Virus record (IMG/VR): IMGVR_UViG_3300005581_000019
Location: 1-50,124 of that record
Source: a virus
DNA: 50,124 bases
Strand: one strand, 5' to 3'
The translations under genes and the position numbers were made by a program. The notes under the pieces were generated by a model. It did not search any database. It worked only from the letters and a program-made list of their open reading frames with translations, and was not told the origin of the DNA. Within the stretch, counting starts at the first letter, position 1; each line of letters starts with the position of its first letter. Shown in pieces: positions 3,000 to 36,600 of the stretch.

Positions 3000-3013
3000 T
3001 CCGCAAAAACAAC

Positions 3014-3811
3014 ATGTCACCCACCATCCTGAAAAATGCCCAAGCTGTCGAAACTGAACTGCGGGCCTTGGTCCTGCAAGAGCTCAATCTATACCAAATC
3101 GCAAGGACCCTTGATATCTCGCCCGCAACGGCCCGGCGCTACATGAGCCACCTAAAAATAAAGCCTTTCGAAAAACGAAAGAAACGCAACAACAAGCCCG
3201 ACCATCGAATCGAAGAAATGGTTAAAATGAGGAAAAACGGACAAACACTGGACGAAATAGGAACCTTCTTCAACATCACGCGGGAACGAGTGCGCCAAAT
3301 TCTCCAGAAACAATGTCCCGACTTCGTGTTTCCTATTCGAATAGTCAAAAGCCAAACCTGCAACCACTGCGGAGTGTCATACGTGCCATCCGGACCCGGA
3401 TCGCAGTTTTGCAATCAAAAGTGCATGGGAGTGGCAAGAAACCTCACTTTCAATCGAGACACCGCCATCAAGGTGATGCGCCAACGAGATCAAGGAAAGA
3501 AGTGGTCTGAAGTTGCCAATGAATTAGGACAAGGAGCATCGCATGTAGTGTTTCGCGCCCGCATCCAACGCTACAAACATTTTTTCAGCAGCACAGAACA
3601 AGAATTGTACTTTCCAACAAAAAACGAAAAACAGTTCAAAGCCAATAGCGCTAATGAATTAGAAGAAAATGAAACAAAAGTTAAAGGTCATGACTCTTTA
3701 ATTACCAAGATGTTGCTTCCTCTTTTTAACTTGATCCGTTTACCATCCCATGCTAAAAGCCCTGTTGAATCCAATCCACAGGGCACTGCTCACCGGAAAA
3801 GACAACCGTAA
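3014..3811 (+). CDS. Two-HTH, zinc-finger DNA-binding protein
   Basis: 265 residues from the ATG at 3014. Residues about 25-45 (YQIARTLDISPATARRYM) are a resolvase/LuxR-style helix-turn-helix, and 77-100 (TLDEIGTFFNITRERVRQIL) match a sigma-70 region-4-type helix-turn-helix. A zinc site follows, C116xxC119 ... C133xxxC137, and then another helical region (ATLIKVMRQ-like, SEVANELG) that may be a third HTH. The last 60 residues are AT-rich, low in complexity and look foreign. It is a good candidate for a phage regulator and for recognising the dyad repeats, but that link is inference. A strong terminator follows. Confidence 0.75.
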   Translation: MSPTILKNAQAVETELRALVLQELNLYQIARTLDISPATARRYMSHLKIKPFEKRKKRNNKPDHRIEEMVKMRKNGQTLDEIGTFFNITRERVRQILQKQCPDFVFPIRIVKSQTCNHCGVSYVPSGPGSQFCNQKCMGVARNLTFNRDTAIKVMRQRDQGKKWSEVANELGQGASHVVFRARIQRYKHFFSSTEQELYFPTKNEKQFKANSANELEENETKVKGHDSLITKMLLPLFNLIRLPSHAKSPVESNPQGTAHRKRQP

Positions 3812-3877: not shown

Positions 3878-4336
3878 ATGAAAAATAAGCGCAAGTGGAC
3901 CAAGACCAGCCATTGGTCGTTTGACGAGAAGAAAGCGTCGAAGCCGACAAAGGTAAAGCGCCTCCGCAACGACCAGAAGCAGCCGGAGCTCGACGCCCAC
4001 ACGTTCGACGACTGGTCCGCCGCTGGCTACCGCATCTCCAAGGGGGCGAAGAGCCGCACGCGCAATCTCGACGGTGTCCCGTTGTTCGGTCTTGACCAAG
4101 TTTGGACGAACGACAAAAAAGCCCGTCCGCCTGTCTCAAAGCCTCCCACCCCGTCCGGCCCCACGTCATGTCCTCACGTCAAACCTTCACCGTCCAGCTG
4201 GTCTCAGCCCTCCGGGCTGGTGAAGGAAGTGTTGGCGAGGATGGAGGAGAAGAAGGAGGCGGAGGACGCGGCGCACATGCACATGCCTGAAAGCTTCGAA
4301 CCCAACGAAGACGACTACAAAGATTTACCTTACTGA
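3878..4336 (+). CDS. Basic, low-complexity hypothetical protein
   Basis: 152 residues from the ATG at 3878. A GTG at 3842 in frame lies inside the terminator and is rejected. The first half is strongly basic (KNKRKWTKTSHW, KKASKPTKVKRLR), the middle is rich in Pro and Ser, and the C-terminus is acidic (MEEKKEAEDAAH, EPNEDDYKDLPY). Such a charge-split, disordered protein may bind nucleic acid, but no family is recognised. The Pro/Ser stretch contains a 15-bp hairpin sequence (4206-4220) repeated at 8560-8574. Confidence 0.6.
   Translation: MKNKRKWTKTSHWSFDEKKASKPTKVKRLRNDQKQPELDAHTFDDWSAAGYRISKGAKSRTRNLDGVPLFGLDQVWTNDKKARPPVSKPPTPSGPTSCPHVKPSPSSWSQPSGLVKEVLARMEEKKEAEDAAHMHMPESFEPNEDDYKDLPY
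4206..4220 (+). repeat. 15-bp hairpin sequence, copy A
   Basis: AGCCCTCCGGGCTGG, identical to 8560-8574. AGCCC and GGGCT form a tight hairpin. Here it is inside a gene; at 8560 it lies between genes. Confidence 0.6.
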
Positions 4337-4580: not shown

Positions 4581-4862
4581 ATGAACCAAGAACTCTCCGA
4601 CGACAACGCAGGCTCCGCCGCCATCCGCTTGATTCTAGAACCTTATCACCAGCGCATCTACGAGCTGGAGGGCCGTCTCAACCACATCGAGCAGGCCTAC
4701 ATCCATTCAGACCGTCTCCGCACCGAATGCCAGCTCAAGCTAGAAACCCTCACGAAAGCCGCTGAGCGCGCCCGAGATGCTCGCGGGCGCTTCCACACCC
4801 AAATAGCATTTGAAGCGCTCATAAAGCTACTGCAAGAGCAAAAAAAGCCCCCCCAGCCATGA
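4581..4862 (+). CDS. Coiled-coil hypothetical protein
   Basis: A 93-residue protein that is almost wholly alpha-helical, with heptad-like Leu, Ile and Ala spacing from about residue 20 to 85 (YELEGRLNHIEQ, LKLETLTKAAERARD). It probably dimerises as a coiled coil. The role is unknown. Its 4-bp overlap with the XRE-sigma gene that follows couples their translation, so it may be a partner or modulator of that regulator (inference). Confidence 0.65.
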   Translation: MNQELSDDNAGSAAIRLILEPYHQRIYELEGRLNHIEQAYIHSDRLRTECQLKLETLTKAAERARDARGRFHTQIAFEALIKLLQEQKKPPQP

Positions 4863-5434
4863 AAGTAACGGCAATCACTCGATACAAACACGGAGAGCTT
4901 TACCGCCTTCTTCGAAAACTTGGTTGGAGTCAAAGCGAGCTTGCGCGAAAAACCGGTTACAGTGCCGGAGCCATTGGAAGGGTAATCAATCTTGAGTTCA
5001 GACCTTCCGTCGACTTTGCCAACAGCATCCAAAATGCCTTTGCTGAAGCCGGAGAATATTTCGATGTCCTAGAAGAATGGCCAGAAACATTTATCGGCAT
5101 CGGAAAAGGATCGAAAGTGGAACAGACCATGGATGTCCCAATGGAGTCGCTTTTAAGCTGTCATGAGGCTATGAATCTTCCCGCGCCAAATCCTTACGAG
5201 GATGAGAAGGAAGATGAATTCGGACAAGCAATCGACTCCCTCAAACCGCAGCAACAAATAGTGATTCGCGCTCTTTACTTTGAAAACAAAACTCCCGTCC
5301 AAGTCAAAAAGGAAACCAAAATGAGTCTCTCTAGGATTCTCCAGATCAGAGATGCCGCGCTACGTTCGCTACGTCATCCCTCAAGGATAAAGAAAATGGA
5401 AAGCTACTGGAATTCCAAATCCACCCAGCCATGA
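4859..5434 (+). CDS. XRE HTH fused to sigma-70 region-4-like domain
   Basis: 191 residues. Residues about 14-65 (ELYRLLRKLGWSQSELAR... AGAIGRVIN) are a Cro/CI-type XRE helix-turn-helix. Residues about 123-176 (AIDSLKPQQQIVIRALYF ... SLSRILQIRDAALRSLR) fit sigma-70 region 4, including the turn before the recognition helix. No sigma region 2 is present, so it cannot be a full sigma factor. It could bind DNA at an operator and contact RNA polymerase or a -35-like site. It is a prime candidate for recognising the dyad repeats. It is somewhat AT-richer than its neighbours, as often seen for acquired regulators. Confidence 0.75.
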   Translation: MKVTAITRYKHGELYRLLRKLGWSQSELARKTGYSAGAIGRVINLEFRPSVDFANSIQNAFAEAGEYFDVLEEWPETFIGIGKGSKVEQTMDVPMESLLSCHEAMNLPAPNPYEDEKEDEFGQAIDSLKPQQQIVIRALYFENKTPVQVKKETKMSLSRILQIRDAALRSLRHPSRIKKMESYWNSKSTQP

Positions 5435-6187: not shown

Positions 6188-6660
6188 ACACAACCGTCCT
6201 TATTCCCACACACATCCAGAACACCGCTCCCAAGCCAACCAAAAGCCAGATTATCGAAGCATTAATGAACCGCGCCCGCAAGACGCACGGCCAAGCCGAA
6301 ACCCTGAAGGCATCCAAGCGCGACCAACTCGAAACCGAAGGCATCGCACTGGTGCTGGAAGCTTTTAAGAAAGCCAAGCCCACCAAGGAGGATGTCAGTC
6401 TAGCCCATTCATGGAAATGGGATCGACCGGCCACCGTAGAGGTGAAAGTCAATTCTCCTGCAATCCGGGCCATCCAGAAAAAGATCAACAATCTCAGCTC
6501 GTCCCGTTTCGATGAAGACGAAACCAAGAAGAAAATCCAAGAGGGGATGAAGGCCCCCAACCCACTGCTTGGCAACGACGCGGCGGAAGCGGCGCTCGAC
6601 CAGCTACTCGCCACCATCATGAACACCCCACGGGTGATCGACCAGACGATAGACGTCTAA
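6184..6660 (+). CDS. Helical hypothetical protein before structured RNA 1
   Basis: 158 residues from the ATG at 6184 (an ATG at 6154 in frame would invade the previous gene). It is mainly helical with many Lys and Glu (KPTKSQIIEALMNRARK, ETKKKIQEGMK) and a short beta stretch (PATVEVKV). It shows some similarity in pattern to nucleic-acid-binding or scaffold-like phage proteins, but no family is certain. It ends at the TAA right before the 531-nt hairpin-rich region, so this region could be its 3' end or a separate RNA. Confidence 0.65.
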   Translation: MNTTVLIPTHIQNTAPKPTKSQIIEALMNRARKTHGQAETLKASKRDQLETEGIALVLEAFKKAKPTKEDVSLAHSWKWDRPATVEVKVNSPAIRAIQKKINNLSSSRFDEDETKKKIQEGMKAPNPLLGNDAAEAALDQLLATIMNTPRVIDQTIDV

Positions 6661-7006
6661 AAAAGATTTCCTTCGACCGTTATAAGGTAAAACGGTCTGG
6701 TCGCAGGAAGCAACAAGCCTGCCGTTCAGCATGGGTCCGCCAGTCAGGTGCCATGTGGGCGATAGTCGTGACTGGTTCGCCCGCCGTGGGGCGTGTCAAA
6801 GTTCCACGGCATCCAATTTCTACTGCTCCAGCAGCGACCGTTCGCTACGGAAACTGTAAAGCATGGCTTACAACACTGGAGGAAGAAAGCCCCACAGCCC
6901 CTGTCTGGTAAATGCGGAAGCCCTTCTCGGGCGATCTATAGAAGGGATGAAATCAGAGACGAGAATACGGACAAACGCTTGTGCCACTTGAAGCACACGG
7001 GCAAGG

Positions 7007-7052
7007 ACGGAACCGCTGGGGCGTCACGCCAGCGTCGGAAACGGTAACCGAC
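7007..7052 (+). repeat. Two-hairpin RNA motif, copy 1
   Basis: GGAACCG is followed by a hairpin closed by CGCTGG/CCAGCG with GCGTCA in its loop region, and then by GTCGG (7034-7038)/CCGAC (7048-7052) with the 9-nt loop AAACGGTAA. The same order, with different stem bases but matching loops, appears at 10302-10345. Confidence 0.65.
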
Positions 7053-7172
7053 ACCTCAATGAAGCGGCGGAATAGCTTACCCAACGACGCCTGAATCATT
7101 CATGTCCTACGCTTGAAATCTTCGAAGACTATACAGCGTAATCCACGAAAAAAACAGGGCCGCTTCACCCCT

Positions 7173-7187
7173 TTCAGTCTGACCAAA
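7173..7187 (+). repeat. Degenerate dyad repeat just before a start
   Basis: TTCAGTCTGACCAAA differs from the exact repeat at three positions and lies 4 nt before the ATG at 7192, the same placement as the exact copies. Probably a decayed or variant copy. Confidence 0.5.
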
Positions 7188-7191
7188 CACC

Positions 7192-7518
7192 ATGAACACC
7201 CTCGAAAAAACACGTCACTTCCAACCCGACATCGCCATCACCGTGGATTGGAAATACGACCCGTCATTCGTCTGGGACGGGGACGGAGAAGATCCCAAAA
7301 ATGATCGGAATTACCCACAGCATCCACATAATGTTACTGTCACAGCGTCCATCATCCGCAAAGGTGTCCTCATCCAAGACAGCGTCTATCTCGGCGGCTG
7401 CTACGCGTTTTACAATGGCCCCTACGATGAGGAAGTTAACGGTTATCTCCCGCAAATGATCGACGACGCGATTCAATTTCTCGACTTGAAGCTCAAAGAA
7501 ACCATCATCGAACCATGA
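7192..7518 (+). CDS. Hypothetical protein (108 aa)
   Basis: A 108-residue acidic protein with an Asp-rich centre (DPSFVWDGDGEDPKND) and beta-type segments (HNVTVTASIIRKGVLIQDSV). It starts just after structured RNA 1 and a variant dyad repeat, and overlaps the nuclease gene by 4 bp, so it is probably an accessory of the recombination cassette or simply its first gene. No family is recognised. Confidence 0.65.
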   Translation: MNTLEKTRHFQPDIAITVDWKYDPSFVWDGDGEDPKNDRNYPQHPHNVTVTASIIRKGVLIQDSVYLGGCYAFYNGPYDEEVNGYLPQMIDDAIQFLDLKLKETIIEP

Positions 7519-8372
7519 AAGACATCTCCAAAGAACTCCACAGTTTCCCAAGCCCGTTCGCCCGCGCCATCACTCGCGACCATTACGACGGAGGTACGTC
7601 GATGTTCAGCGTCACCACCCTCATCTCCCCACCCCAGCGCACCTACCTCAAGACGCTGGGTGAGGAAATCCGCAGCCCTTACGGATCGTTCGCGGCGATG
7701 CTCGGCACGGCGATGCACCACATCATCGAGCAGAACATCGACGAGGCGGCCGGAGAGATCGCGGAGCGCCGTCTCTACACCGACATCACGGTGGGCGGCG
7801 AGTCCATCTCGGTGAGCGGCCAAATCGACCACTGGGAGAACCGCACGCTGTCAGATTACAAGCTGACAGGAGGCGTGCAGGACAAAATGAAGGACCCTCA
7901 CTTCCTCCAAGTCCAGATGAACGGCTATCTCGCCGAATGCAACGACATTCCCGTAGACTTTGTCAGCGTCATCTACGTGCAAAAAGACTGGAGCCACTTG
8001 CGGTCCACTTTCGACCCCACTTACCCGCAGACACCGTTCAAGGTGTATGTCCACCCCTTCGACCGCGAGCTGGCCGTCCGGACGTTCCAGACCACCACCA
8101 CCGACCACTGGAACGCCAAGCAGGGCAATCCCCGTCCCTGCACGCCGGACGAACAGTGGCGCAAGCCCACCACCTACGCGCTGATGAAGCCGGACGCCAA
8201 GCGGGCGTCTAAAGTGTGCGACACGCGCAGCGAGGCCCAAGAGCTCCTCAAGCCCGGCCAAATGATTGTCGAACGTCCCGGCGAAGCCACCTACTGCCTT
8301 CACTTCTGCGGGTTTGCCCACCTCTGCCCGCAGTTCAAGCGCGAGCAGATGTCCAACACACCCGACCAATGA
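7515..8372 (+). CDS. RecB/Cas4-like PD-(D/E)XK nuclease
   Basis: 285 residues. Motifs seen: GTAMHH (64-69) for the helix that carries the conserved His; SGQID with Asp105; and DYK (114-116), which together give the H...D...(D/E)xK order of RecB-family exonucleases. A cysteine set near the C-terminus, C261, C265 and C271, resembles the iron-sulfur ligands of Cas4/AddB nucleases. It should degrade double-stranded DNA ends and make single strands for the annealing protein encoded at 8812. The gene order nuclease, two small genes, ERF and ssDNA-binding candidates supports this. Confidence 0.85.
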   Translation: MKDISKELHSFPSPFARAITRDHYDGGTSMFSVTTLISPPQRTYLKTLGEEIRSPYGSFAAMLGTAMHHIIEQNIDEAAGEIAERRLYTDITVGGESISVSGQIDHWENRTLSDYKLTGGVQDKMKDPHFLQVQMNGYLAECNDIPVDFVSVIYVQKDWSHLRSTFDPTYPQTPFKVYVHPFDRELAVRTFQTTTTDHWNAKQGNPRPCTPDEQWRKPTTYALMKPDAKRASKVCDTRSEAQELLKPGQMIVERPGEATYCLHFCGFAHLCPQFKREQMSNTPDQ

Positions 8373-8811: not shown

Positions 8812-9420
8812 ATGTCCAAATCCAACATCAAACTGCAAGAAATCCAGTCGAACCTCAACGCTCCCAAGACGTTGGAAAACAAGTTCGGCGGATACAAATA
8901 CCGGTCCGCCGAATCCATCCTCGAAGCGCTCAAGCCACACCTTGAAAAACACCAAGCCACCCTCACTCTCAGTGACGAGATTGTGGAAGTGGGCGGACGT
9001 GTCTACGTCAAAGCCACCGCTACGTTCAGGACTGATGACCAGATCATCTCCACCACCGCGTTCGCTCGCGAAGCCGAAAGCAAAAAAGGTATGGACGACG
9101 CGCAGGTGACCGGAGCCTGTTCATCTTACGCCCGTAAATACGCTCTCAACGGCTTGTTCTGCATTGACGACACCAAGGATGCAGACGCCACTGAAACCCA
9201 CGGCAAGACGGAGCCGGTTTCCAAGCCCGCTCCGACCGCAGCCGCCAAGCCCACACCCAAGCCAGCCGATGACATGGTCAATACCATCGTCACCGTAATG
9301 CGCGCGCAAACCACTCTCAGCGATCTTGAGGCCAAGATGGACAAAGCCAAAGGGACTCCCTACGGCACCAATCCGCTGATCCTCGCCGCCTACACCGAAA
9401 CCAAAAACAACATAAAGTAA
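8812..9420 (+). CDS. ERF-family single-strand annealing protein
   Basis: 202 residues. The N-terminal part matches ERF-type recombinases: KFGGYKYRSAESILEALKP at about residues 23-41, then alternating strands (VEVGGRVYVKATATFRT), then VTGACSSYARKYALNGLF and a D-rich site (DDTKDAD). The C-terminal third is Pro/Ala/Lys-rich linker plus a short helix. ERF proteins anneal complementary single strands during phage recombination and circularisation. The upstream nuclease makes its substrate, and the following genes look like single-strand binders. Family assignment is firm from the pattern. Confidence 0.85.
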   Translation: MSKSNIKLQEIQSNLNAPKTLENKFGGYKYRSAESILEALKPHLEKHQATLTLSDEIVEVGGRVYVKATATFRTDDQIISTTAFAREAESKKGMDDAQVTGACSSYARKYALNGLFCIDDTKDADATETHGKTEPVSKPAPTAAAKPTPKPADDMVNTIVTVMRAQTTLSDLEAKMDKAKGTPYGTNPLILAAYTETKNNIK

Positions 9421-9704
9421 TGTCACAGACATATGAAATCAAAGGAGCCGTCAAATTTGTCGGCGAAATGGAAACCCTCGGAGCCAAAGGCTTCACCAAA
9501 CGCGAGCTCATCGTCACCACCCCCGACGAGAAATACCCGCAAGACCTCAAGATCGAGTTTGTCAAAGACAACTGCTCGAAGCTCGACGACATCAGCGTTG
9601 GCGACGAAGTCACAGTGGGTGTCAATCTCCGTGGCAGCGAATACAACGGCAAGTATTACGTCAGCCTGACCGGCTGGAAAATCGACAAGGGCGAACCTTT
9701 CTAA
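9420..9704 (+). CDS. DUF3127-like OB-fold protein
   Basis: A 94-residue protein with the DUF3127 layout: an opening strand (YEIKGAVKFVG), a basic loop with KRELIVTT, DEKYPQDLKIEF, then VGDEVTVGVNLRGSEYNGKYYVSLTGWKI. Members of this family are small, OB-like and found mostly in Bacteroidota and their phages. A role in single-strand DNA binding is inferred from the fold and from its position between ERF and another OB-like protein. Its ATG shares one base with the ERF stop. Confidence 0.8.
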   Translation: MSQTYEIKGAVKFVGEMETLGAKGFTKRELIVTTPDEKYPQDLKIEFVKDNCSKLDDISVGDEVTVGVNLRGSEYNGKYYVSLTGWKIDKGEPF

Positions 9705-9707
9705 GTC

Positions 9708-10178
9708 ATGGCAACACTCCATCAAGTCAGCACGGCCAAGGATGGAGAAAGCTTCACCGCCATCGGCGTTGTGGTTGTTCACAAGCAGTTCAACCCCAAG
9801 GTAGCGAAAAACGGCAAGCTGTTTTCCAGCGTCATCCTCAAGAGCGCGGGCACAGAAGTGTTCATGACCTTGTGGGAGGACGCTGCGAAATGGAAGCTTC
9901 CGATCAACACCGACATGATCCTGCGTGGCAAGTTCACAAAGAATCAATACAACGGCGCGGCCAGCCTCAAATGCGAGGAACTGGCCGTGCCGGAAAACGC
10001 AACGGAGTTCAAGCAAGATGAAATCCAAGGCGAGCCTGAAAAGCCAAAGATGAAGGACTGCCTCGACGCGGGTCTCAGAGCGGCGGACTACATGGTCCGC
10101 AAGGAACGTCCTGACCTCGCGTCAGCCGCCTTCACCTTCGCCGCCAACGCCTTCATGCAGGGCGTCCGCATGGAATAA
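9708..10178 (+). CDS. OB-like putative single-strand DNA-binding protein
   Basis: 156 residues. The first 100 resemble an OB fold: FTAIGVVVVHKQFN, then KLFSSVILKSAGTEVFMTLW, then DMILRGKFTKNQYNGAASLKCEEL. The C-terminal 45 residues are helical and end AFMQGVRME rather than with the acidic tip usual in bacterial SSB. It probably completes the nuclease-ERF-DUF3127 module as the single-strand binder, but this is inferred from fold pattern and location. The second structured region begins right after its stop. Confidence 0.6.
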   Translation: MATLHQVSTAKDGESFTAIGVVVVHKQFNPKVAKNGKLFSSVILKSAGTEVFMTLWEDAAKWKLPINTDMILRGKFTKNQYNGAASLKCEELAVPENATEFKQDEIQGEPEKPKMKDCLDAGLRAADYMVRKERPDLASAAFTFAANAFMQGVRME

Positions 10179-10301
10179 TTCTCCGCCCCCGGCGTTAACC
10201 GGTTGGGGGACAGATCCGGGGAAACACGGTTGACACATCGGAAAGACGGTGCCTTACGCATGAACTTTGGTCAGTAGTTGTATAGCTAAATCCCAAACCA
10301 T

Positions 10302-10345
10302 GGAACCGTCAGTAGCGTCAAGCTGACACCGGATACGGTAACCGG
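10302..10345 (+). repeat. Two-hairpin RNA motif, copy 2
   Basis: GGAACCG is followed by GTCAG/CTGAC with GCGTCA in the loop and then by CCGG (10329-10332)/CCGG (10342-10345) with loop ATACGGTAA. Compared with copy 1 the loops match (8 of 9 bases in the second) while the stem bases differ but still pair. Confidence 0.65.
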
Positions 10346-10538
10346 ACTCTTTTGAGCATGAGAAGCGCCTCGGCGTTAAGCGTAGAAAGCCGCCTCGCGA
10401 ACGGCCATGCTCACCCACTCTCCGGCGCGTGTGCGCAGAACCCATTCCAATCCTGTGGAACCGATAGCTAAGGGGCTTGCAGGATCACCGGGAATGTTCG
10501 TTCAAATGTCGGGAAACCGAGCGCGTCGGACCTCTTTC

Positions 10539-10553
10539 TTTAGCCTGACTAAA
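10539..10553 (+). repeat. 15-bp dyad repeat, copy (TTTAGCCTGACTAAA)
   Basis: An exact copy at the 3' edge of structured RNA 2, ending 4 nt before the ATG at 10558. Confidence 0.9.
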
Positions 10554-10557
10554 ACCA

Positions 10558-24489: not shown

Positions 24490-24647
24490 AAAAAGAACTA
24501 CAAGAAGCTGCATTCACCCGTGAGATCGAGAAACGCATTGATCAGCTAGCAACCGAGTTCGACCTGTCCTATTCGTTCGTCGTGGGGGCCCTCAGCCTGA
24601 TCCTCCACGGGATCAAGGCTGAGTATTTTGAGGACAATGAAGATTAG
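24486..24647 (+). CDS. Last rightward gene, TTG start (53 aa)
   Basis: A TTG at 24486 overlaps the previous stop and opens 53 codons (LKKELQEAAFTREIEK..., the first residue being Met in practice). The product is helical and acidic, with ATEFDLSYSFVVGALSLILH in the middle. Its TAG at 24645-24647 overlaps the end of the giant leftward gene. No ATG is available, so expression relies on TTG. Confidence 0.5.
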   Translation: MKKELQEAAFTREIEKRIDQLATEFDLSYSFVVGALSLILHGIKAEYFEDNED

Positions 24648-27600
24648 TAGCTTTCCCTTTTCTCTTCTTTGACCGGCTTTCTAAGAACAGATTTGAAGTG
24701 ACCGCGAGCGTCTCGCATAAATGGAGCCAGCTCAGTCAGCGCATACATCGCCGAATTGCTTGCAGAGCTCATCCGGTTGCTGGCCGCTTCATCCGTCATG
24801 TTGTATTCGGCAAGAAGCTTCATCGCTGAGCTCATGTCGTAAACCGCGCTGGTCGCCGCCGTGACACCCATCGCGTTCTCGAAAGCCCCCGCTTCGTATT
24901 GACGAGCCATGACACCATCGTCGTCGAAGTAGAAACGAGACTTCTCAAGCATCTCGTCATTTCCTGTGATTCCACGATAGCCATTCGTGACCATCGTCAC
25001 AATGCTTTCCGCAGCGTCGTTGGTAATGAACTTTTCAAGCAAGTTGCTCACCGGAGAGTAACCCGCCGCAACTCCACCGACAGGAATCATCGTCGCGCTC
25101 TCTAGCAAAGTTTTGTTGAAAATCTCGGCAAGAGCAGAAGCAAACGCTGCGTCAGGTTCCAAATCGGACCTAAACAACTCGCGTTCTTTTCCAACCGCTA
25201 CAATCTTCAGGAAGTTGGCGACAGCGTTTCCATCCTCCGAAGGAGCAAGAATGTTGTTCGCCATCTCCTGCGCGTGGATCACCGCCTCGTCCTCGTCGTC
25301 TCCCATAAAGACCCGTGCGATCACCCAAGAAACGATTGAAACTGCAACCTTCCACTTCAAGATGGGGAACAAGGCGTTCTGGACAAATGTCGCAACGACG
25401 TTCTCCAGCGCCTCTTTGTGAGTGGCTTCGTCGATCACCTCGATCTTTTTGAATCCTGCCTTGCGAAGCAGCGGGTTGATGGCTTGCGGGAATTGCACGG
25501 ACATGTTGCTTGCCGTGGAAGACGTGTGGTTCGAGAACAACGTCAACGCCTTCCAAAGCGCCGAAACAAACGGGCTGTGGTCTCTGGATTGGAACATCCA
25601 AGCCTTGTTGCTGTGGTCCGACTGGCCGAACATCTCGTTCACTTTGAGACGTGAATTGACAATGTCCATGTCCTGAAGACTGACGTTTCCTTTGAACAAC
25701 TCGTTCTCGTCGGTGACGTTCGTATGGTCCATCAACTCGGCAATGAACACGGACGTTGCCAAAGCTCGTTCCATCTTTCCAATCGTAAAGTCCAAAGCGT
25801 CTTCACCAACCTTTTCGTAAGTGCGGATTGCTTTGCCAAGAGTGTTTTTGACCACCTTGCTGCCATAACGCTTTTGACCACGCGTCACATCGCGCAGCAC
25901 TTCGCGCCCATCCAGCGAGCGGTAATAAACCATGACGTCGTTGTCCATGACCAGTTGGCGGGCTTTCTCCCTGAACTTGGAGTCGGTCAAATACTTCGCC
26001 ACCAGCCTGAAGTAGTTCTTCACCATCCCCGGTTTGCCCACCGCCAGCTTGCCAAGAGTGTAGCCAATGGATGGTCCTACCGATTGGTCGGTGATTTGTT
26101 GGACGGAAGCCAAGCTGCGGACGATGAACGCCGAGCTCAGGAACCTGAGCGTTTCAGATCCCCCGGTATTTACGGCTCCAGTTTGGAAGTCATTCCTAAT
26201 CGCCACTTCAAGCTCGTTGGCGACAAACGCCAAGGCCGTGGTGGCTGCGACGATGTTTTGTTTGTGCTCGTGCTCAGCCTCGCGCAACTCACGATTTGGA
26301 AGCAACGGATCTGGTTTTTGAGCTTCAAGAATGGCAAGCATCCCGCTGTCTTCAATGTTCAACTGCCCGCTGACGTCCTTTACTTTGCCAATCGAACGAC
26401 GCAGCACCTCGTAAGTTGGAGTGACGTTCAGGCGGTAGATGGCGTCGTCAACCAGCGACTGCGGAGCGGACAAGCCGTTCACCGAAATCGGACGGAACAC
26501 GCTCTTGTCGTCAAACAACCGGGAAGAATGACCAATCCCACCGAAAAACGACGCCTCGTCAAACGAGACAATGTCCATCGGGTCGGAAACGTATTCGCCT
26601 TGGCGGATGTCTTCCTTGCCAGCCGGGTTGCCCGCGTAGGCAATGCTCATCGGGACCGACGAGTAGGTGGTCTTGTAAGCGTTGAGCTTCTTGTCCCGCC
26701 ACTTGCTGCTGGTGGCAAAGTCGTCAGCGCTCTCCGGCTTGGAAAGCATTGCCTGCGTGAAGTGCATGGCGCTGTCGATGTCTCCAAGGACGTCACCAAT
26801 GGTCTTGGCGTAGTGATCAACCGCTGCTTCCTTGCCGCTTGAGACATTCTTTCTCAGCGTCGCCTTGATCTTCTCAACCTCAGCGCGAGCCTCAACATCA
26901 TCGGTGAAAGTGGCGTTGACTTTCGCGGAAGTGAGGATGGAGCGCATCTTTTCCGTCAACTCCCGGTCGCGGATCAAATCAAGATGCCCTGCATTCCAGT
27001 AGCGTGAAATGTCGTTCTTGCCGTAGTAGTCGTCTTGCGCTTGGGCAAACTCATCGTATTGAGCAAAGCCGGTCTTGGCCTGCTTAATCCACTCGTTAAA
27101 CGCCTTCGCGTAAGTGAGACCGTGTGCGTTGACCAGCCCGTCTAGAAGCGCGATGAAGTAGCCAATCGACTGGTCCTGCGCGTTGTGACCCACCTGCTTG
27201 GCCGCTTGGGCAATTTCCTCCTGTGCCACCTTCTTGCTTCGCTCGTAACCGTGACGACCGCTTTTGCCGTCAATCCCACGGTCAAGAAGCGTCCGCAAGT
27301 GAATCGCCGCCTGACGCCCAGCACGAGTCTTTTGGAAGCGCTTCTTCATCCGTGCGTCGTGGTGATCCAAATACTCCATGAAGAACAAAGACGTCTTGGA
27401 GTTGTGGATGGTCATTGAGGTGGTGAGACGCTGAAGGATCAGGTCCGTCTCCACCTCCATGAACACCTTCGAGAAAATCTCCTCGGTCTTGAACCCAATC
27501 ATGTTGTCCACATCCCATCCGGCTCCCCACTGCTTGGCCGCAGCAATATTGGTAAACGAACGACCGTCATTCTCGCTGATGCTTTCAAGGAACGCCTTTA

Positions 27601-30600
27601 CGGCCTTCTTCGTGTCATCGCTCAACACTCCGGCGGAGTCGTTGTAGGCCATGACAATCCCTTCGATCTTGTGGATGGCACCGGCAAGAGCCGCTTGGGA
27701 GACGCGGCGAGACATATCCACCTTCTTCGTCCCGTCCGCTTTCATGTCGTTGCGGATGCCGTCGAGAAACACCTGCATCTTGCGGGTGAACTCATTGGAG
27801 AATGTCTTGGCAGCTTGATCCTTGGTCAGCGTCTTGCCTTTAGTCAGGCTAAACTCGTCCGAATTGAAACTCTCGCCCTTGATCCCATCCATGGTGTCCA
27901 TGAAGTAGGAATGGTCGTCGGCTGCAATAGCCAGAGCGTGCGAAGCTATGTGCCCTAAAACCGTGTTGGAATTGCGCTTGGTCACCCTACTAGGGAAAGA
28001 CCTCATAAGCTGCTCACGGGCCGTTGTGGCCACCATGATGACGTCCTGCCCTTCCTGACTGAACAACGAGCCAATCTTCTCCGACCGCTCCTTCATGCTC
28101 TTGGGCATGTTGAGGATGGTGAGACGGGTTTGCTGGTTGGGGGTGAGCAGTTGGAACTCAGCGCTCGCAGGGTCCACCAGCATCGCAACGTGCTCCGCTT
28201 CAAGACCGCGCATCATCGCTTGCTCCGCATCCGACCTCGCTTGTCCCATGTTGTCCCTCAAAACCACCTCCTCCACCTCGGTCATTTTGATCGCTTGGCG
28301 AATCACCTTGAGTGGGTTGAAGTTTTGGAAGTTGTCTTGGGTGTTGCGGGCGATCTTGTAGTTGTCGTCGATGTGGTCTTTGGAAAGGTTGGTCAACGCG
28401 TTGAGGACCGCCGTCTCCTTGATGTAGTGCTCTTTTCTACGAGCCTTGATCTCCGCGTCGGCCATCGACTCATCCGAAGATAGGTCATTCCATTTCGTCT
28501 TGTCACCACCTACGGTGTTGGTTCCGTCAGCGTTCTTGCTCTCCGTAAATTCAGGCGTGAGGAAGAGATGGAAGCCAATGGTGCGTGAAACAGGCTCAAC
28601 CCCCTCCGACACCAACACATCCCCCTTTGTCACCCGACCCACACCAATGTCCCCCTTGAAGAACGACTGCCCGACGTAGGAGCCACCGGTGTAGTTCTCA
28701 ACCTTGGAAAGTTCTGCGTTCACCGCACGGAGGTCTTTCTCCACCCGTGCGATTTGACGGTCCAAGACGCGAAGCTTTCCAGCCAAGACCACCGACTCCG
28801 CCTTGGCGAGTTCGGCGTTCTCCCTGCTCATCGCGTTGCTCATCACATCCACGCTGAGCTTCTTGCCGTTGCGCTTGCCGTTCTTGTCGGGAAGAGCGCT
28901 CTCGGTTCCGGCCCAATACTTCCTGACGTTCTCGGCGTTGAGGACAACAGCCTCGGCACGGGTTGTCTTTAGCCCGGCTAAAACCTCCTCGAAGCGGGCC
29001 TTGTTGTCTTCATGGCTCTTCACCAAAGCGCGGGCTTCACGCTCGGCAATCTCCATGGCGTTGCGCGGAAGCGCCACCTTCAGGTCGGCGATCAACTGGT
29101 CATTGACCACCACGTCCAATTCCTGATGACCAAACTTCATGTCTGCCATCGAATCGTTCGGCTGGTTGTGAGTCTTGTTCTCAGCCGCCTTGGCAAGCAA
29201 CGCGTTCTTGATCGACAGCGTCATTTGCTCTTCAACCATCGCCTCAACACTTCCCGTGTTGTAGAGAAGTCCGGCGTTGATCCGCTTGATCCGTGTCCCG
29301 TAAAACCCGGAGGTCAGACGCGTGCGCCCGTTCGCGTTCGGCATGGTCAGCGTCAGAGCCGATCCGACGTAGATGCGTGCCACCTTTTGCATCCGGGTCA
29401 ATTCCTTGGCCGGGCCAGTCGACTTGTCCTCCTTGGAGTTGGTCTTAATGACAGGACTGGAAAGCATTTGAAGCTCCTTGTTGTTTTTGTCAGTGTAAAC
29501 CCGCTTCCCTTGGTCCCTTAAAATCTCATTCGTGCTGCGACCTTTGCCGTCAGCGCGGGTGCGGAGCTCATCCAAGAACGCGTCGCTCTCCACTCCGTTG
29601 AATTGTTTGCCAGCAAGGACGATGGAAGCAAGGGCGTTGTAGAGGAGGTTGTCGCTCCTGTCGTTCTGGCTGAAGTCGGCTTGAGACATGACGGTCCGGG
29701 CCTTGTTCTCTTCCTCTCCAATCTCATTCATTTCCCGTTGGAATTCATCCAGCTCGGTATTATCGAACAATCCTGAAAGCTCATCATTCCTTTCCGTGGC
29801 ATCATCAATCTCGATCATTGCGTCCGGGCTGGACGTGCTCGCATTTTCCTCGTCCATTTCATCCTCTTCAGAATCGACAGGTTCCTCTTCAACCTCGTAA
29901 ATAGAGTTTTCGGTTTCATCACCAAAGCGGCCCGGATCATCCAGCTTGCTTTGACGGATCGACCAGATGGCTTTCATCAGGTCGTCCTGAATCTGGACTG
30001 GAAGCGTGGTTTCCAGCTTATCCTCCCTCGTCTTGAACGACTCGTCCAAGAACGTCTTGGCTTTGTCATCTGTAAGGAACGCGGAGATGGTGATGATGGC
30101 GTCCGCCGTGGCAGGCTCAATGTCAGGAAAAGACAGGCTTCTTGAGACAATGTCAAAGTCGGCGCGAATCGCCGCCATCCTGTCCAAAGCATCCAAGACT
30201 TGCGACTTGTTTGCGACAAACGTCCGTTTGCCCGGCTGTGAGCGGCGTGTGATCACACGACCCTCAACCACTGCCACCGGCTTTAGCTCAGTATCAATCT
30301 TTAAGGCCAGTTCAATCAACGTCGTCTTCACCGAGGGGTCGTTCTCCGCCGAGATGGAAAGCAGCTGGGAAATGACACTACGGGCTTTGTCTTTGGAGAC
30401 ATAGGGTCCGTTCTGGTTCAACGGAAGAATGACAACGTTTGGCGTGGCGGGTGTCTTGGCCTTCTTGTCAGCGGGTTTGCCTTTGAAGATTTGAACGCCC
30501 AAACTCTGCAGTCCATTGCGGTTGGCGACGTCCGACTGGATGTGGGCGACAATCGTCCGACCGGCAAGGTTGTCCACAAGATGGTCGATGATCGCATTGC

Positions 30601-33600
30601 CTGTCCCGTGTCCCATTCCAAGACGGGAGTCCTTGAACCAGAAGTTCTCACTCACCATCGACTCCTTGATGGCCGCTGTGATGCGCTCCGACTCTTCAGG
30701 GCTGACGAACGGGTTGCCGTTCTTGATCGCCTCATACGCCACGGCGACATCGTCTTGGTTCTTGAACCGGTCCGCTTCCACCACCTCGCGCTCAAACTTC
30801 ATCTTGAATTCAAGCAGGTCCATGATGAACCGCTCGGAATCCGTGAAGCGATAGCCGTTGGTCTCGGACATCTTGTTGCCGTATTCGCTGAGGAACGCCG
30901 TGTAAATCTGCCCGTGCATTTCGTCGTTGGTGTGACCCACGGCAGGGAATAGGCCTTTCAACCCTCTCTTCACCAGCTCTTCCGTCATCGCGCCATTGAA
31001 CGCGTTGAACAACTCGCGGTTGACCGCTTTCTGATCATACGGGTTGGCTTCGTTGAAATCCAAGTCCTCGTTCATCCGATCTTCCATTTCGCGGATGTCG
31101 TTGTCGCTGATGCGTGGGACATCGAGACCCGTGGCCGGATCAGTGACCATGCCGCCAAATGATCTCATGCCTGTCGGATTCAACGCTTCCCTACGCTCGC
31201 GCTCGGCAATCACCTGCTCGGCATTGAACCAGCCAGCATGACGCTCGGCACGCATGACGTCGAAGTGGAACTGCTGGCCGTCGGCAGACGAGCGACCGTT
31301 CGGTCCGTTGCTTCCAATGAACATCGCCGCAGACGTCACGCTCATCGCACGGTTGACCGCAGGACGACCAAAGGCACGCTCCGCGCTCTCACTCGGGGTT
31401 GACGCCCGACCTTCGTTGTAGGTGTCGTTGTAGCCCTCCATGGTAGGTGAGCTGGCGTTCATGAAGGAGTTGGCGACACGAGGATCGTCAGGGCTTCCAG
31501 AGAAATCGTTTGGATTGATCACCTCATCCGTGGAGCGAAGTTGGCCATCTGATCCGGGTTTCACCCTCACGTAAGGCATCCGGCCCTCTCCATAGCTGCT
31601 CCGGTTGATGCTGTCGTAAAGCTCGGACGCCCACGTCGATCCGTAGATGTAATTCCGGTCTTCTTCAAAATACTTCAACGTCCACGCCAACCGGTTCACA
31701 ACCCGAGCGTCCGACGTCATCTCCTTGAGCTTCAGGAACGCCTTGTTGTCCGGCTCGAAGGCGGGGTCGCGCTGGTAGCGGTTGCCTTCGTATTCCACGT
31801 TTCTGTGCCACTTGTCGTTCTGGAACGCCTTCAGAGACTTCTTCAGCAGCTTGACGCCACGAGTCGCGTTCCTGAATCCCCACGGAAGGAATTGGCTCCC
31901 CTGTCCGCTGACGATTGTATTGTAGAGCTTGTTGTTGATGTCGGCCACCTTCATGGTCGAAATCTTAATCAAGTTCCCATTCTCCAGCTCAAAAAAGTCC
32001 ATGAAGTCCACCTTGTCGGAAGGCATCTGGAACACCCCGTTCACGTTGTATTTCGACTTGGTCTTGTAGTGCTGCTTGAGGTCGTTCATCACCACCCTCA
32101 TTTCGTTCTGAAGGTAGGAGTCCAAGCCTCCGGTCATCTCAAACGATGTCTCGCCCGTCAGGCTGTTCCTTGTTTCCTGAAGCTTTCCAAACAACCCTTG
32201 AAGCATCGGAGTCATCCGGCCTGCAAAGCTTTGCTCGCCACCCACGGTGTCCGTGATCCGGCCTTCATACTTGCTCTTGATCTTGGCGGTCCATGAATTG
32301 ATCCCCTGATACGCCTTGAGCAGAGCCAAGATGGACCCCGACTTGTCGGACTTGCTCAGCGCGTGCTTTGCGGAGCCAAACTCCTCGCCGTCAAAATCAG
32401 GGAACGCCGAGTCCAACGACTCAAACTCCTCCTGATCGTTGTCGTTGACCTCTTTGTTGAAAAGGAAACCGCCCGTTCTTTCGTAGTCGCTGGCGCTGGT
32501 TCCAATCTCAAGCTTTCCAAGCTGGGAACTGACCCAGTAATTCAGGAACAGGTTCTTGCCCACGAAGTCGGCGTTCGACTCCATCGTTTGTTGGTAAATC
32601 TCAAGACCAGCGTTCCAGTCCTCTTGCTCTTGCGTCAGAGTTTTCCCGGCCTTTGGCCATACCGCTTTGGCTCCGTAACTGTAAACGCTCTCGCCAGCCA
32701 TCAGTCCCTTGAAGACATCATCCGACCCATAAGCGTGCTCCAACGTATCAGACAAGCTCTTGAACTCAAGCGAGCCAGCCTCACCCGTCGGGACGTTCAA
32801 GTCCGCCAAGTTGATCCCGAAGTCCTCGCTGCTCTTCCAAAACTCACCGACGGAACGGTTTTTGACGAATTGGATGGAATCGTTGTAGTCGTCAACGGCT
32901 TGCTGAAACTCCATGTATTCCCTGTAAACCGCTTGGGCCTTGGCGCGGGCTTCAGGGTCTTGGTTCTCGTCACGCTCAAAGACGTTGTCCTGACGCTTAT
33001 GGCTGATTTCCTTCTTCTTTTGAGAAGCGTCAAACTTTTCTTGAGAATAAGCACGGAGCTTTTCAATCATCTCCGTCATCTCCGCCACCTTGGACTCCTG
33101 TTCCTTTAGTCGGGCTAAAGAGTCAACCACTGGTCCTGAGAAGGTTTTCGCAAACCGCTCGTGCAAATCACCGGTAATGTAGTTCTCGGAGACAAGGAGG
33201 GATTGGAGAATAGACGTCTTGTAAGACTCAAGAGCCGCCGCAAATTCTTCTGGATTGGCCCGTTCAAGACGCTCACGTGGAGACCACTCAACAGACTGAT
33301 CCACACTTGCAACCAAGGGAGACAACGCGATATTTGTCTGATCGGTGGACTTGCTTGGTCGCTTGAGATTTCCAACCGGGCGAGCAACGTCGTCAATCTC
33401 AAGATTCGTGGAGACCTTGTATTTGCCGGGCTTGAGATTCTTCCTGAATCCAACGCTGGTCAAACGTCCCCACTTCAAGAGCTCTTTGATTGACGCCGAG
33501 CCACTGACCTTGGTGTCGATGTCTTGAACGGCACGAATGGCGTGAGCATATGCCTCGTTTGCCGTGCGGTTCATCTCGTCCACCGCAAGACCTCTGGCTT

Positions 33601-36600
33601 CCATCAAAGGAGTCAAAGGGCGCGTTGAAGATTCCTCCGCAGGCATCCCGTCCAGAATGGTGCGCCACAGCAACATGCGCTTCGCAGCGTTGGCCTCCTT
33701 GCGTTGGGTTGGGGACAGGTCGGGGTTGTTGTCGTCGCGGATGGTGTCGAACAAATCAAGTGGATTGAAGGACAGGCTGTCCCGTCTCATCTCCATGACC
33801 TGTTGCTTCATGAAGGCCACCGTCATCGCCTGCTGGTAAGCCGGTGCCTTCCCACCCTTGTCATTCAGGTCGAACAAAAACCCTTCCACCTGCTCCATCT
33901 CCTCATCAGTCAAGGTCTTGTATTCCGCAATGTGAGCCTTGATCCGTGGATGGAGATCCAGCGTCATGGTCTCGTGGTCGACGACCAAGGACTGACTGAG
34001 GTTCATGTGACCAAACTGCCTGCTGATCGAGCGCAGCTTCATCGCGGTCTTCGACTGGAGACGGGCAATCTTCCCGACCTCCTCCTTGAATGCCTTCTCG
34101 TAAACATCACGACGACGTTCCGCCTCCTTGGTCGCCTCGTCATAGCCGTAGTCCACGTCTCCTTGAATGCCCTCATTCCGGTAAGCCCGGTTCATGCTTG
34201 CCAACATTTCACGCGCCTGTGGCGGCAGGGTGCCTGTCTGCCACTTCATCCAGAGAATGTTCCTGACCCGTTCGGCATAGCGGCGGATCATGTGTCCAAT
34301 GACGCGCAGAGGACTTTTGGAGAGGCTTCCTTGCGTCTCGTTGGCCTTGTCAAAGGCGTCCCCGTAAATGGCGTCCTGAAGCTGGCGGGAGAGAGCTGTA
34401 TCGCGCTCCGTGGTCGTCCCCTTGGTCGCCATCTGGTGAAGCTTGCGGATCAGCTCCGTTGCCACCGTATAGGTGATTTCCAGTTCTTTGGCGTCCGCTC
34501 CCACCGAATCATCCATGTCCGCATCGTCAATTGACGCGTCGAGCGGCCTACCATTGGTTCCAGTCGGAAAGCGCTCTTTCAACGTTTCTTTCAAAAGACG
34601 GGTGAACTCATGGTCCGATCCGTCTTTGTTCTTAGGCAGGTCGAGAATAGCTTTGTAAAACGACCGAAGTTCGTCGGCGGAGAAAATCTTGAATCCAATC
34701 AAGTGGGTGAGCTCTTCGTCAATCCATGCTGAAATAACCCGAGCGGCATCCATCCCGAGCAGCGTGTTGGACGCGGAATCGTTGGTGTTGGCTGTCCGGT
34801 AAATCTTGGCGAGCTGCACAGCCATCTTGGCGTAGTCCACCTTGATCGTGCCATACTCGGTTGAATCGACGTTTGGCTCAGCGTAAAGGAAGCTGTCACC
34901 GCTCATCTCCTCCTTGACGACCTTGAAGGTCTTCTTCGGAGACACCACCTTCATCACCTTGGCGAACAGCTTCTCCATGTTCTCTGGAGTGATGTCTCCT
35001 TTGGCAATGCTCTTGAAGTGTTTCTGAACCTCCTTGGCAACGTTAGCAAGCAAGGAGCGGGTGTATTTGTTTCCTTGGTTTATCAGACCTTTGTCGGTGA
35101 TGAGGTCGCCAGCAGCTTCGGCAGTGGTTTTCTTGGAGAACTCCCAACGTCCATTTACCACATTCGTCACCTGAAGAAACTCGTCAGGCTTGCCCTCAAT
35201 CGCCACCACCTCGCCAATCGACAATGACAGCGAGCTGCCAGTAGGCGGACGGTAGCTGTAAACAACCTCCTTGGTTTCCGAGACGTCCATCGTCCAGTTG
35301 CCGCCAATCGAGTCGTCACCTCCCTTGATCAACTCCGGGTCGGCGACGTAAACCACATCCTGATAAACCGTCGAAGCCGCATTGTCCGCTGTCTTGTCCT
35401 GCGTCTTCAGGGCGTCGGCTTTGGAATGGCCAGCAAGACGGGCCTGCATGGACTTGATGGCGACAGAACGAGTGCCGCCCCCCTTGGACAACTCATTGTC
35501 AATCGCTTCGTCGGTGACGTAGGTTTTGCCGTTCTTGGCGACGGGTTTGAAGACGCCGTTGTCATGGATGTAGTTCGGATCGTTTTCACCCAATGGCGGA
35601 AGCCCGCGCTGGATGTCGCTTCCAAGCTTGTTGCGGACCACCTCCCGGTCGTTGTTGGTAGGTGTGGCTGGAGCTGCCGGGGTGGATTCCTCGGCAGCTC
35701 CTTCGTTCAGCAGCCCTTGCCTTTTGGCTTCGACATCGGCATCGGCTTTCCTTTTGGCATCGGTTTCGCTTTGGTTTTCATCGGTTGGTGGTGTTGGTTT
35801 CTTGGTTTCTTCCGCCGGAGTGGCGGAAGGAGTTGGGCCGGTCGTCGGGGCGTCGGGTGAATTCGTTTCTTTTCTCGCGGTTTTGAGTTTTGTGACCTTG
35901 CCCCCGAATATCGTGAGAACCGTTCTTGGTGCATGACTACCTCCAGTTGCAAACTTCCCGTCACCAATACTCCACCATACCACGCCTTGCTCGTCGATGA
36001 TTTCTTCAGCCTGCGAAGCCTGTTCTAGTATCTGTGCTTCGAACGATTTCCGCTTTTTACTTAGTTCCACCGCCGCCTGTTCACGGGTAAGGCCTTCCGC
36101 CATTCGCTTTTTGGTATATTCGCGGCCGTCTTTCAGCTCATTGGGTAATTGTGGGACAGCATCCCCGATATTTAATGGCGTTTGTGGCGTGGCGGAGGGA
36201 GCTTCTTTAACCGGGCTAACTTCAGATGGAGATAAGTCAATTTCGTTGTCGCTCAGCCCTTCACTAGATGCCACAGCGCCTGCGCTTGATGTCTTGAGAG
36301 ATGCGCCAGCACTTGCAGCTTCGCCACCGCTGTTTCCTTCGGCATCTCGAACATCGGCCAAATCTTCTTCGCCGGTAACGGTGATTTCTGCATCAGTTGT
36401 TGGATTTGCTCCATCTTGTTCGGACCATTCATCGTGGTAGGTTGTGTCGTTTGCATTGGTTGAAAATTTATCTGACCATCGTTTGGCCATGCTGGCGTCT
36501 TTCGGCTTGATCACCTGCTTCACCGTTCTGAGCGCGGTGGCGGCTTGAGGCGGACTGAGATACTCGGTAGTGACGGTGCCGTCTGGATTGACCGTTTCCT

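Follow-up and report, generated by a model that had tools for sequence, protein, structure and literature searches.

The window analysed here is the whole 50,124-base record of one virus (IMGVR_UViG_3300005581_000019). An upstream ORF ends at position 6660 and the ATG of the next gene lies at 7192; by the ORF list, the 531-nt gene-free gap to which an earlier note had drawn attention (6661–7191) is real. Just two ORFs of at least 60 aa touch it, one of 84 aa starting with GTG (6793–7047) and one starting with TTG (7113–7304). No sigma-70-like promoter was found between 6100 and 7600, and there are no tRNA genes in the window. The following features lie beside or downstream of the gap.

7171–7187, + strand: degenerate copy of the pre-start motif CTTTAGCCTGACTAAA, just before the ATG at 7192, read against the repeat families of the window
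7192 (start): gene of 108 aa, between the RNA described below and the exonuclease gene
7515–8372: exonuclease (PHROG 2139), behind the 108-aa gene
8812–9420: ERF-type annealing protein, behind the exonuclease
9420–9704: DUF3127/single-strand-binding protein, after the ERF-type gene
10179–10357, + strand: sister RNA locus, with a P8–P9 hairpin pair (10302–10344) in common with the first locus

The near-palindrome CTTTAGCCTGACTAAA / CTTTAGCCCGGCTAAA recurs in the window (805, 4563, 8520, 10538, 13221, 15517, 17057, 21503, 22928, 23850, 28967, 37796, 38869, 42197 and 49795), many copies lying directly before start codons, and may serve this phage as an operator, a promoter or a translation leader. 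Nearly one third of the window is taken up by one 4848-aa ORF on the − strand (24644–39190).

Relatives and the conserved core

Cross-phage sequence comparison supports the earlier proposal that the gap holds a large noncoding RNA. The RNA, at about 6814–7167, was recovered from five phage contigs, which between them carry four distinct versions: that of the window, those of L005 and L088, and one common to L003 and L004. L003 and L004 are different contigs (84,920 and 52,037 bases) that are identical across 1,301 displayed bases. L003/L004 were retrieved by a translated-frame search used as a DNA probe, and L005 and L088 by pattern scans. L005 is closely related to the window, with the RNA in the same place and the same 108-aa gene next. 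L088, which carries ERF- and DUF3127-like genes, is a distant relative; there the RNA follows a 155-aa ORF, the apparent counterpart of window 9708–10178, and so occupies a different position from that in the window. In L003, whose record has no match to the window ERF protein, the RNA lies within an array of 20 tRNA genes, RNA and tRNAs all on one strand, while the L005 and L088 loci have no tRNA genes. Four homologous versions, with a conserved core and kept hairpins, thus occur beside differing genomic neighbours.

A covariance model built from the window, L003 and L005 (R1) recovered L088, which had no part in it, with 73 bits (E 6.8e-16, 97 sources searched). A second model, R2, covers the conserved 5′ domain and matches 5/6 phage records, from whose own sequences it was largely built. 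Within this domain lies a 75-nt ultraconserved core.

6814–6925, + strand: conserved 5′ domain, covered by R2, in 5/6 phage records
6817–6891, + strand: 75-nt ultraconserved core; identity 74/75 in L003, 74/75 in L005 and 63/73 aligned positions in L088

Window and L005 agree at 149/208 positions in the 3′ half of the RNA and at 258/326 (79%) in the next gene, and their ERF proteins share 66% identity; for window and L088 the ERF figure is only 31%, yet the core matches at 63/73. The core is accordingly slower-evolving than its measured neighbours. As a protein, the 84-aa frame at 6793–7047 was rejected: a stop follows 13 conserved-core codons in L088, and its start codon was not seen in L003 or L005.

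All members came from eight scans of viral contigs (L003/L004, the same contigs as L006/L007, then L005 and L088). The remaining stretches were non-members: 12/15 in one scan, with R1 silent; 4/7 in a second, by R1; 87/91 in the scan that yielded L088 (76 R1-silent, L151–L161 judged by eye outside the R1 search); and 16/20 in a further scan (R2 at most 14.5 bits; L173 and L168 were viewed and read as coding). A genome scan gave R1 matches in 0/50 stretches, with a scan pattern that would miss L088-like versions. R2 had no match in genomes sampled from the phyla represented by the genomes that hold L036 (Opitutia, 0/387), L031 (Phocaeicola, 0/395), L048 (Polynucleobacter, 0/398) and L046 (Pirellulaceae, 0/392), under stricter filters with which a null shows little. 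With the gap as query, phage and plasmid collections returned nothing, or 27–46 nt matches taken as chance; the sister locus and the L003 and L088 RNAs likewise drew nothing from the phage collection, or 27–46 nt matches at chance level.

The surroundings of the relatives hold further elements. The L003 tRNA array contains a GIY-YIG ORF (3002–3652) and a second noncoding element in two copies (1153–1304 and 3962–4103, 78% identical). A 34-nt element, CATAACGGGG..CCCCGAGATTCCACAA, is common to L002, a close relative described below, and L003 (11826–11859 and 4332–4365 respectively, 88% identity); its surroundings are longer, stem-flanked and tRNA-like, a possible further RNA family of these two phages. 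L088 has a short tRNA-like stub at 4123–4165 (mascRNA-menRNA, 24.2 bits, under the gathering threshold of 42.5) and, after the RNA, a long gene-poor stretch (4690–5195) with a hairpin and a T run at its end, perhaps another RNA.

Helices and folding energy

Helices were assessed by folding anchored segments singly against mononucleotide shuffles, and double changes were read from a hand-made alignment of four sequences. P8 and P9 were compared among the window, L005, L088 and the sister locus, L003 not being aligned there.

6826–6831 / 6876–6881, + strand: P1, candidate, CTCCAG/CTGGAG, predicted in the window, L003 and L005 folds and not in the L088 fold
6833–6846, + strand: P2 hairpin, AGCGA/TCGCT, rewritten in L088 yet kept
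6865–6869 / 6887–6891, + strand: P3pk, GGCTT/AAGCC, in L088 with a double change from T-A to C-G and with one pair broken
6892–6897 / 6903–6908, + strand: P4 hairpin with a central mismatch, double changes at two pairs
6920–6932, + strand: P5 hairpin, GCCC/GGGC, present in 4/4 as three different sequences
7014–7034, + strand: P8 hairpin, CGCTGG/CCAGCG, three double-change pairs
7034–7052, + strand: P9 hairpin, GTCGG/CCGAC, 9-nt loop, one double change
7060–7167, + strand: terminal domain, closed by TGAAGCGGC (7060–7068) and GCCGCTTCA (7159–7167)

For P5, 0/1000 shuffles did as well over all sequences combined, and double changes occur at three pairs. For P2 the combined p was 0.007; of the four sequences behind this value, three are almost the same. 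The fold energy of P4 was not significant (0.22), and its pair 4 is non-standard in 3/4 sequences and its pair 6 in 2/4. P1 is invariant, so its pairing is neither supported nor refuted; together with P3pk it would form a pseudoknot, and the predicted core fold is possibly pseudoknotted. The stability of the core fold was no greater than that of shuffles (0.34; mononucleotide). Several candidates were discarded: P3 as a simple hairpin (TGTAA/TTACA) occurs in three versions and fails to form in L088, a long-range pairing between the core and roughly 7015–7022 (window and L005 folds) lacks its partner in L088, and a likeness noticed by eye between the core and two parts of 16S, the 530 loop and ACTGGAGGAAG, was not significant.

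Towards the 3′ end sequence diverges while hairpins persist via compensatory changes. Beyond P5 the window and L003 cannot be aligned by score (143/300 shuffles as good), and aligning the 3′ halves with MAFFT gave too poor a result for use. The terminal closing stem measures 9 bp in the window (7/500 shuffles do as well) and 11 bp in L003, in the same place and of unrelated sequence (7/500); that of L005, at 8 bp, is equalled by 128/500 shuffles and hence proves nothing alone. L088 appears to be without the terminal domain, and its P9 runs into seven T.

An ordinary folding energy, which the earlier note had proposed as grounds for giving up the RNA, is what the whole + strand shows: z was −0.86, with 18/100 shuffles equally good, compared with z −2.66 (1/100) for the better-folding − strand. 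Since whole-region energy is ordinary, folding alone would reject the RNA; it was rescued by sequence comparison, in which conservation reveals a functional element. The claim of stem density fared unevenly. Counting perfect Watson-Crick stems with loops of 3–30 nt against 300 dinucleotide shuffles, the gap has 19 stems of at least 5 bp (shuffle mean 11.0; 19 reached in 6/300) and four of at least 7 bp (1/300), so the number does stand above shuffles; 4/94 tiles of 531 nt along the window likewise reach 19. The excess, however, sits in 6661–6813 (9 stems against 2.2 expected, 0/300), the remainder (6814–7172) having 10 against 6.2 in shuffles (29/300).

6661–6813, + strand: 5′ strong-hairpin block, with 7-bp stems 6675–6681/6691–6697, 6740–6746/6769–6775 and 6783–6789/6804–6810

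This block is also very stable (6661–6815, z −3.19, 1/200 shuffles), whereas 6816–7172 and its counterparts in the relatives fold no better than shuffles (z +0.77, −1.07, −0.99 and −0.82). The block is missing from L005, and BLAST found it in 0/6 other sequences searched. Energy and stem excess both sit here, so energy flags the unconserved 5′ block, which is perhaps a separate, window-specific element.

Comparison with known RNA families

Rfam gave no match at the gathering threshold across the whole window and nothing credible up to E 10 within 6500–7400, in agreement with the earlier impression that nothing there resembles a riboswitch or RNase P. Within 6500–7400 no family of group I or II introns or of known self-cleaving ribozymes was listed up to E 10. 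The best match, rpsB sRNA on the − strand, reached 16.9 bits against a gathering threshold of 40 and was taken as chance. GOLLD and ROOL gave no match up to E 1 in L003 and L005 or up to E 10 in L088 4100–5250. The element is thus a conserved structured phage RNA whose family has no match in Rfam.

The best reading of its context is a resemblance to GOLLD and ROOL, RNAs that form homo-oligomeric cages, in a different family. Like GOLLD, it is a phage-encoded, structured, long ncRNA of unknown function. GOLLD often lies near phage tRNA islands; of the versions here, that of L003/L004 sits in an array of 20 tRNA genes, and the window, L005 and L088 loci have no tRNA gene. GOLLD is described as having a conserved 3′ region and a variable other end (PMC12286853); on that description the conserved end here is the opposite one, the 5′. 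The RNA is also shorter, about 350 nt compared with more than 800, and lacks a match to the GOLLD model. ROOL, too, is encoded by phages, an ornate RNA that is in many cases found close to tRNA islands (PMC12286853), but no ROOL model matches and the conserved sequence differs.

The sister locus and ribosomal RNA

A second gene-free stretch occupies 10179–10557. Its P8–P9 pair aligns with that of the first locus with a score of 39 (best of 300 shuffles 34; 0/300), and 10231–10357 is 78% identical to L088 4566–4688, the 3′ half of the L088 RNA. The core is missing from it, R2 giving one match in the whole window record. As the sister locus has the 3′ hairpins without the core, core and 3′ domains combine differently.

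The equivalent of 10179–10557 in relatives (L191 595–765, a sequence from the L005 record, and L002 11440–11610) carries other modules. Each has 20 nt identical to E. coli 23S 1059–1078, the site known as the GTPase-associated centre, followed by an insert and then by a far strand, GGCGTAACAGCACACCGAC, aligned by eye to 23S AGCGTAATAGCTCACTGG. The Smith-Waterman score of 40 lay above the highest values among shuffles, 29 and 26 (0/60 each). This module is not in the window. A 20-nt piece of L191 is, in addition, 90% identical to 16S 1080–1099 (1/60 shuffles as good); the 16S-like stretch lies at L191 905–945, with similar pieces at window 10503–10532 and L002 11755–11791. An HNH-like ORF (L002 10687–11346) lies inside the noncoding sister locus.

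Leaders that mimic rRNA are known from ribosomal-protein operons, and the relatives' module, with its 20 nt of the 23S GTPase-associated centre and the far strand, resembles them in this; a ribosomal-protein gene was, however, not seen beside the module, and the gap RNA has no significant rRNA similarity. In comparisons of 6661–7191 with E. coli rRNA, 11/60 (16S) and 16/60 (23S) shuffles were as good. The rRNA link is therefore context, and not evidence on the gap RNA. Literature searches on phage mimics of rRNA, on mimics of the GTPase centre and on rRNA-like RNAs of phages brought up no paper that, by its title and the opening of its abstract, treats such an RNA.

Interpretation

The earlier note had suggested control of the recombination genes that follow, or action in trans on the host. 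The former is disfavoured: the 108-aa gene intervenes, and the RNA does not keep to a single downstream gene. In the close relative L002 the 108-aa gene and the exonuclease are present but not preceded by such an RNA; an RNA-ligase gene (6637–7299; PF09414, E 3.8e-12) stands where the window and L005 carry the RNA. In L088 and L003 the RNA precedes other sequence. These placings weaken the case for a leader and favour a trans-acting RNA located at an accessory hot spot, so that trans action would be the better reading. The ligase was considered as a companion of the RNA and set aside, being present in 3/6 records and missing from those of the window, L005 and L088.

On balance, we consider it somewhat probable that 6814–7167 encodes a structured ncRNA of about 350 nt from a new family, one that is expressed together with the early genes and works in trans. 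We infer that it is transcribed, from the + strand, and that it has a partner; any link to translation would be of the same conditional kind. Such an RNA would consist of a fixed 5′ domain holding the 75-nt core and a variable, swappable 3′ part (P5, P8, P9 and the terminal domain). The core would dock on a single, highly conserved partner, which is most probably a protein or RNA belonging to the host machinery for translation or RNA processing, and the 3′ modules may tune or extend what the core-docked RNA binds. Several observations favour a new RNA: the core is kept at 74/75 in a record without the window's ERF gene, L088 was found by a model free of L088, P5 is kept in 4/4, double changes occur in P3pk, P4, P5, P8 and P9, the closing stem is replaced yet retained in L003, the 3′ hairpins are common to a second locus, and the versions lie in different genomic places. 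That it is RNA is further supported by its lying on the same strand as the 20 L003 tRNA genes and by the T run after L088 P9. Against this stand the ordinary + strand energies, the better fold of the − strand, the four sequences aligned by hand, the lack of a sigma-70-like promoter, and the part after P5 that cannot be aligned between window and L003.

A selfish or recently exchanged RNA module, homing or ribozyme-like, would explain why modules vary in combination and place, would fit the HNH ORF inside the L002 sister locus and the GIY-YIG ORF in the L003 array, and would make the identity of L003 and window a matter of recent transfer rather than constraint. It seems rather unlikely, since the core is conserved vertically too (74/75 between window and L005, with the next gene at 79%) and holds at 63/73 in L088 despite ERF proteins 31% identical, and since Rfam offered no intron or ribozyme match. 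The same conserved block, in a noncoding gap adjoining recombination genes, might instead act as DNA, as an origin or a packaging or recombination site; kept palindromes would serve DNA too, and the − strand folds better. We regard this as unlikely, because L002, possibly a fragmentary record, is without the block, which would then not be essential for replication in close kin, and because the fixed co-orientation with the L003 tRNA genes and the T run after P9 in L088 speak for a transcript.

A cis-acting leader, controlling how the 108-aa gene at 7192 or the exonuclease and ERF genes are translated or transcribed, is distinctly unlikely: the RNA does stand directly before 7192 in the window and L005, with the pre-start motif right after it, but L002 keeps gene and exonuclease without the RNA, which in L088 and L003 is elsewhere. 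A decayed gene or chance spacer would account for the whole-region z of −0.86 and for the unconserved 6661–6813, yet is highly improbable given a core at 74/75 in an unrelated phage record and the recovery of L088 at E 6.8e-16; judged by sequence conservation, this reading is refuted for the core.

Returning to a trans-acting RNA of a new family, a near-identical core in otherwise unrelated phages suggests a precise job during infection. A 75-nt core so nearly identical amid divergence is among the more constrained phage noncoding elements that could be expected, and offers a short, testable bait toward its partner. As a speculation that we hold to be rather improbable, phages might carry shuffling RNA modules in which an ultraconserved docking domain, swappable 3′ domains and, at sister loci, imitations of rRNA sites are together decoys for host factors or defence enzymes that bind or cut the translation machinery. 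If the rRNA imitation in the relatives' sister locus belongs to the same system, phages would be using mimicry of ribosome RNA, and the system would give a handle on why large structured RNAs of unknown function, GOLLD and ROOL among them, reside in phage tRNA arrays.
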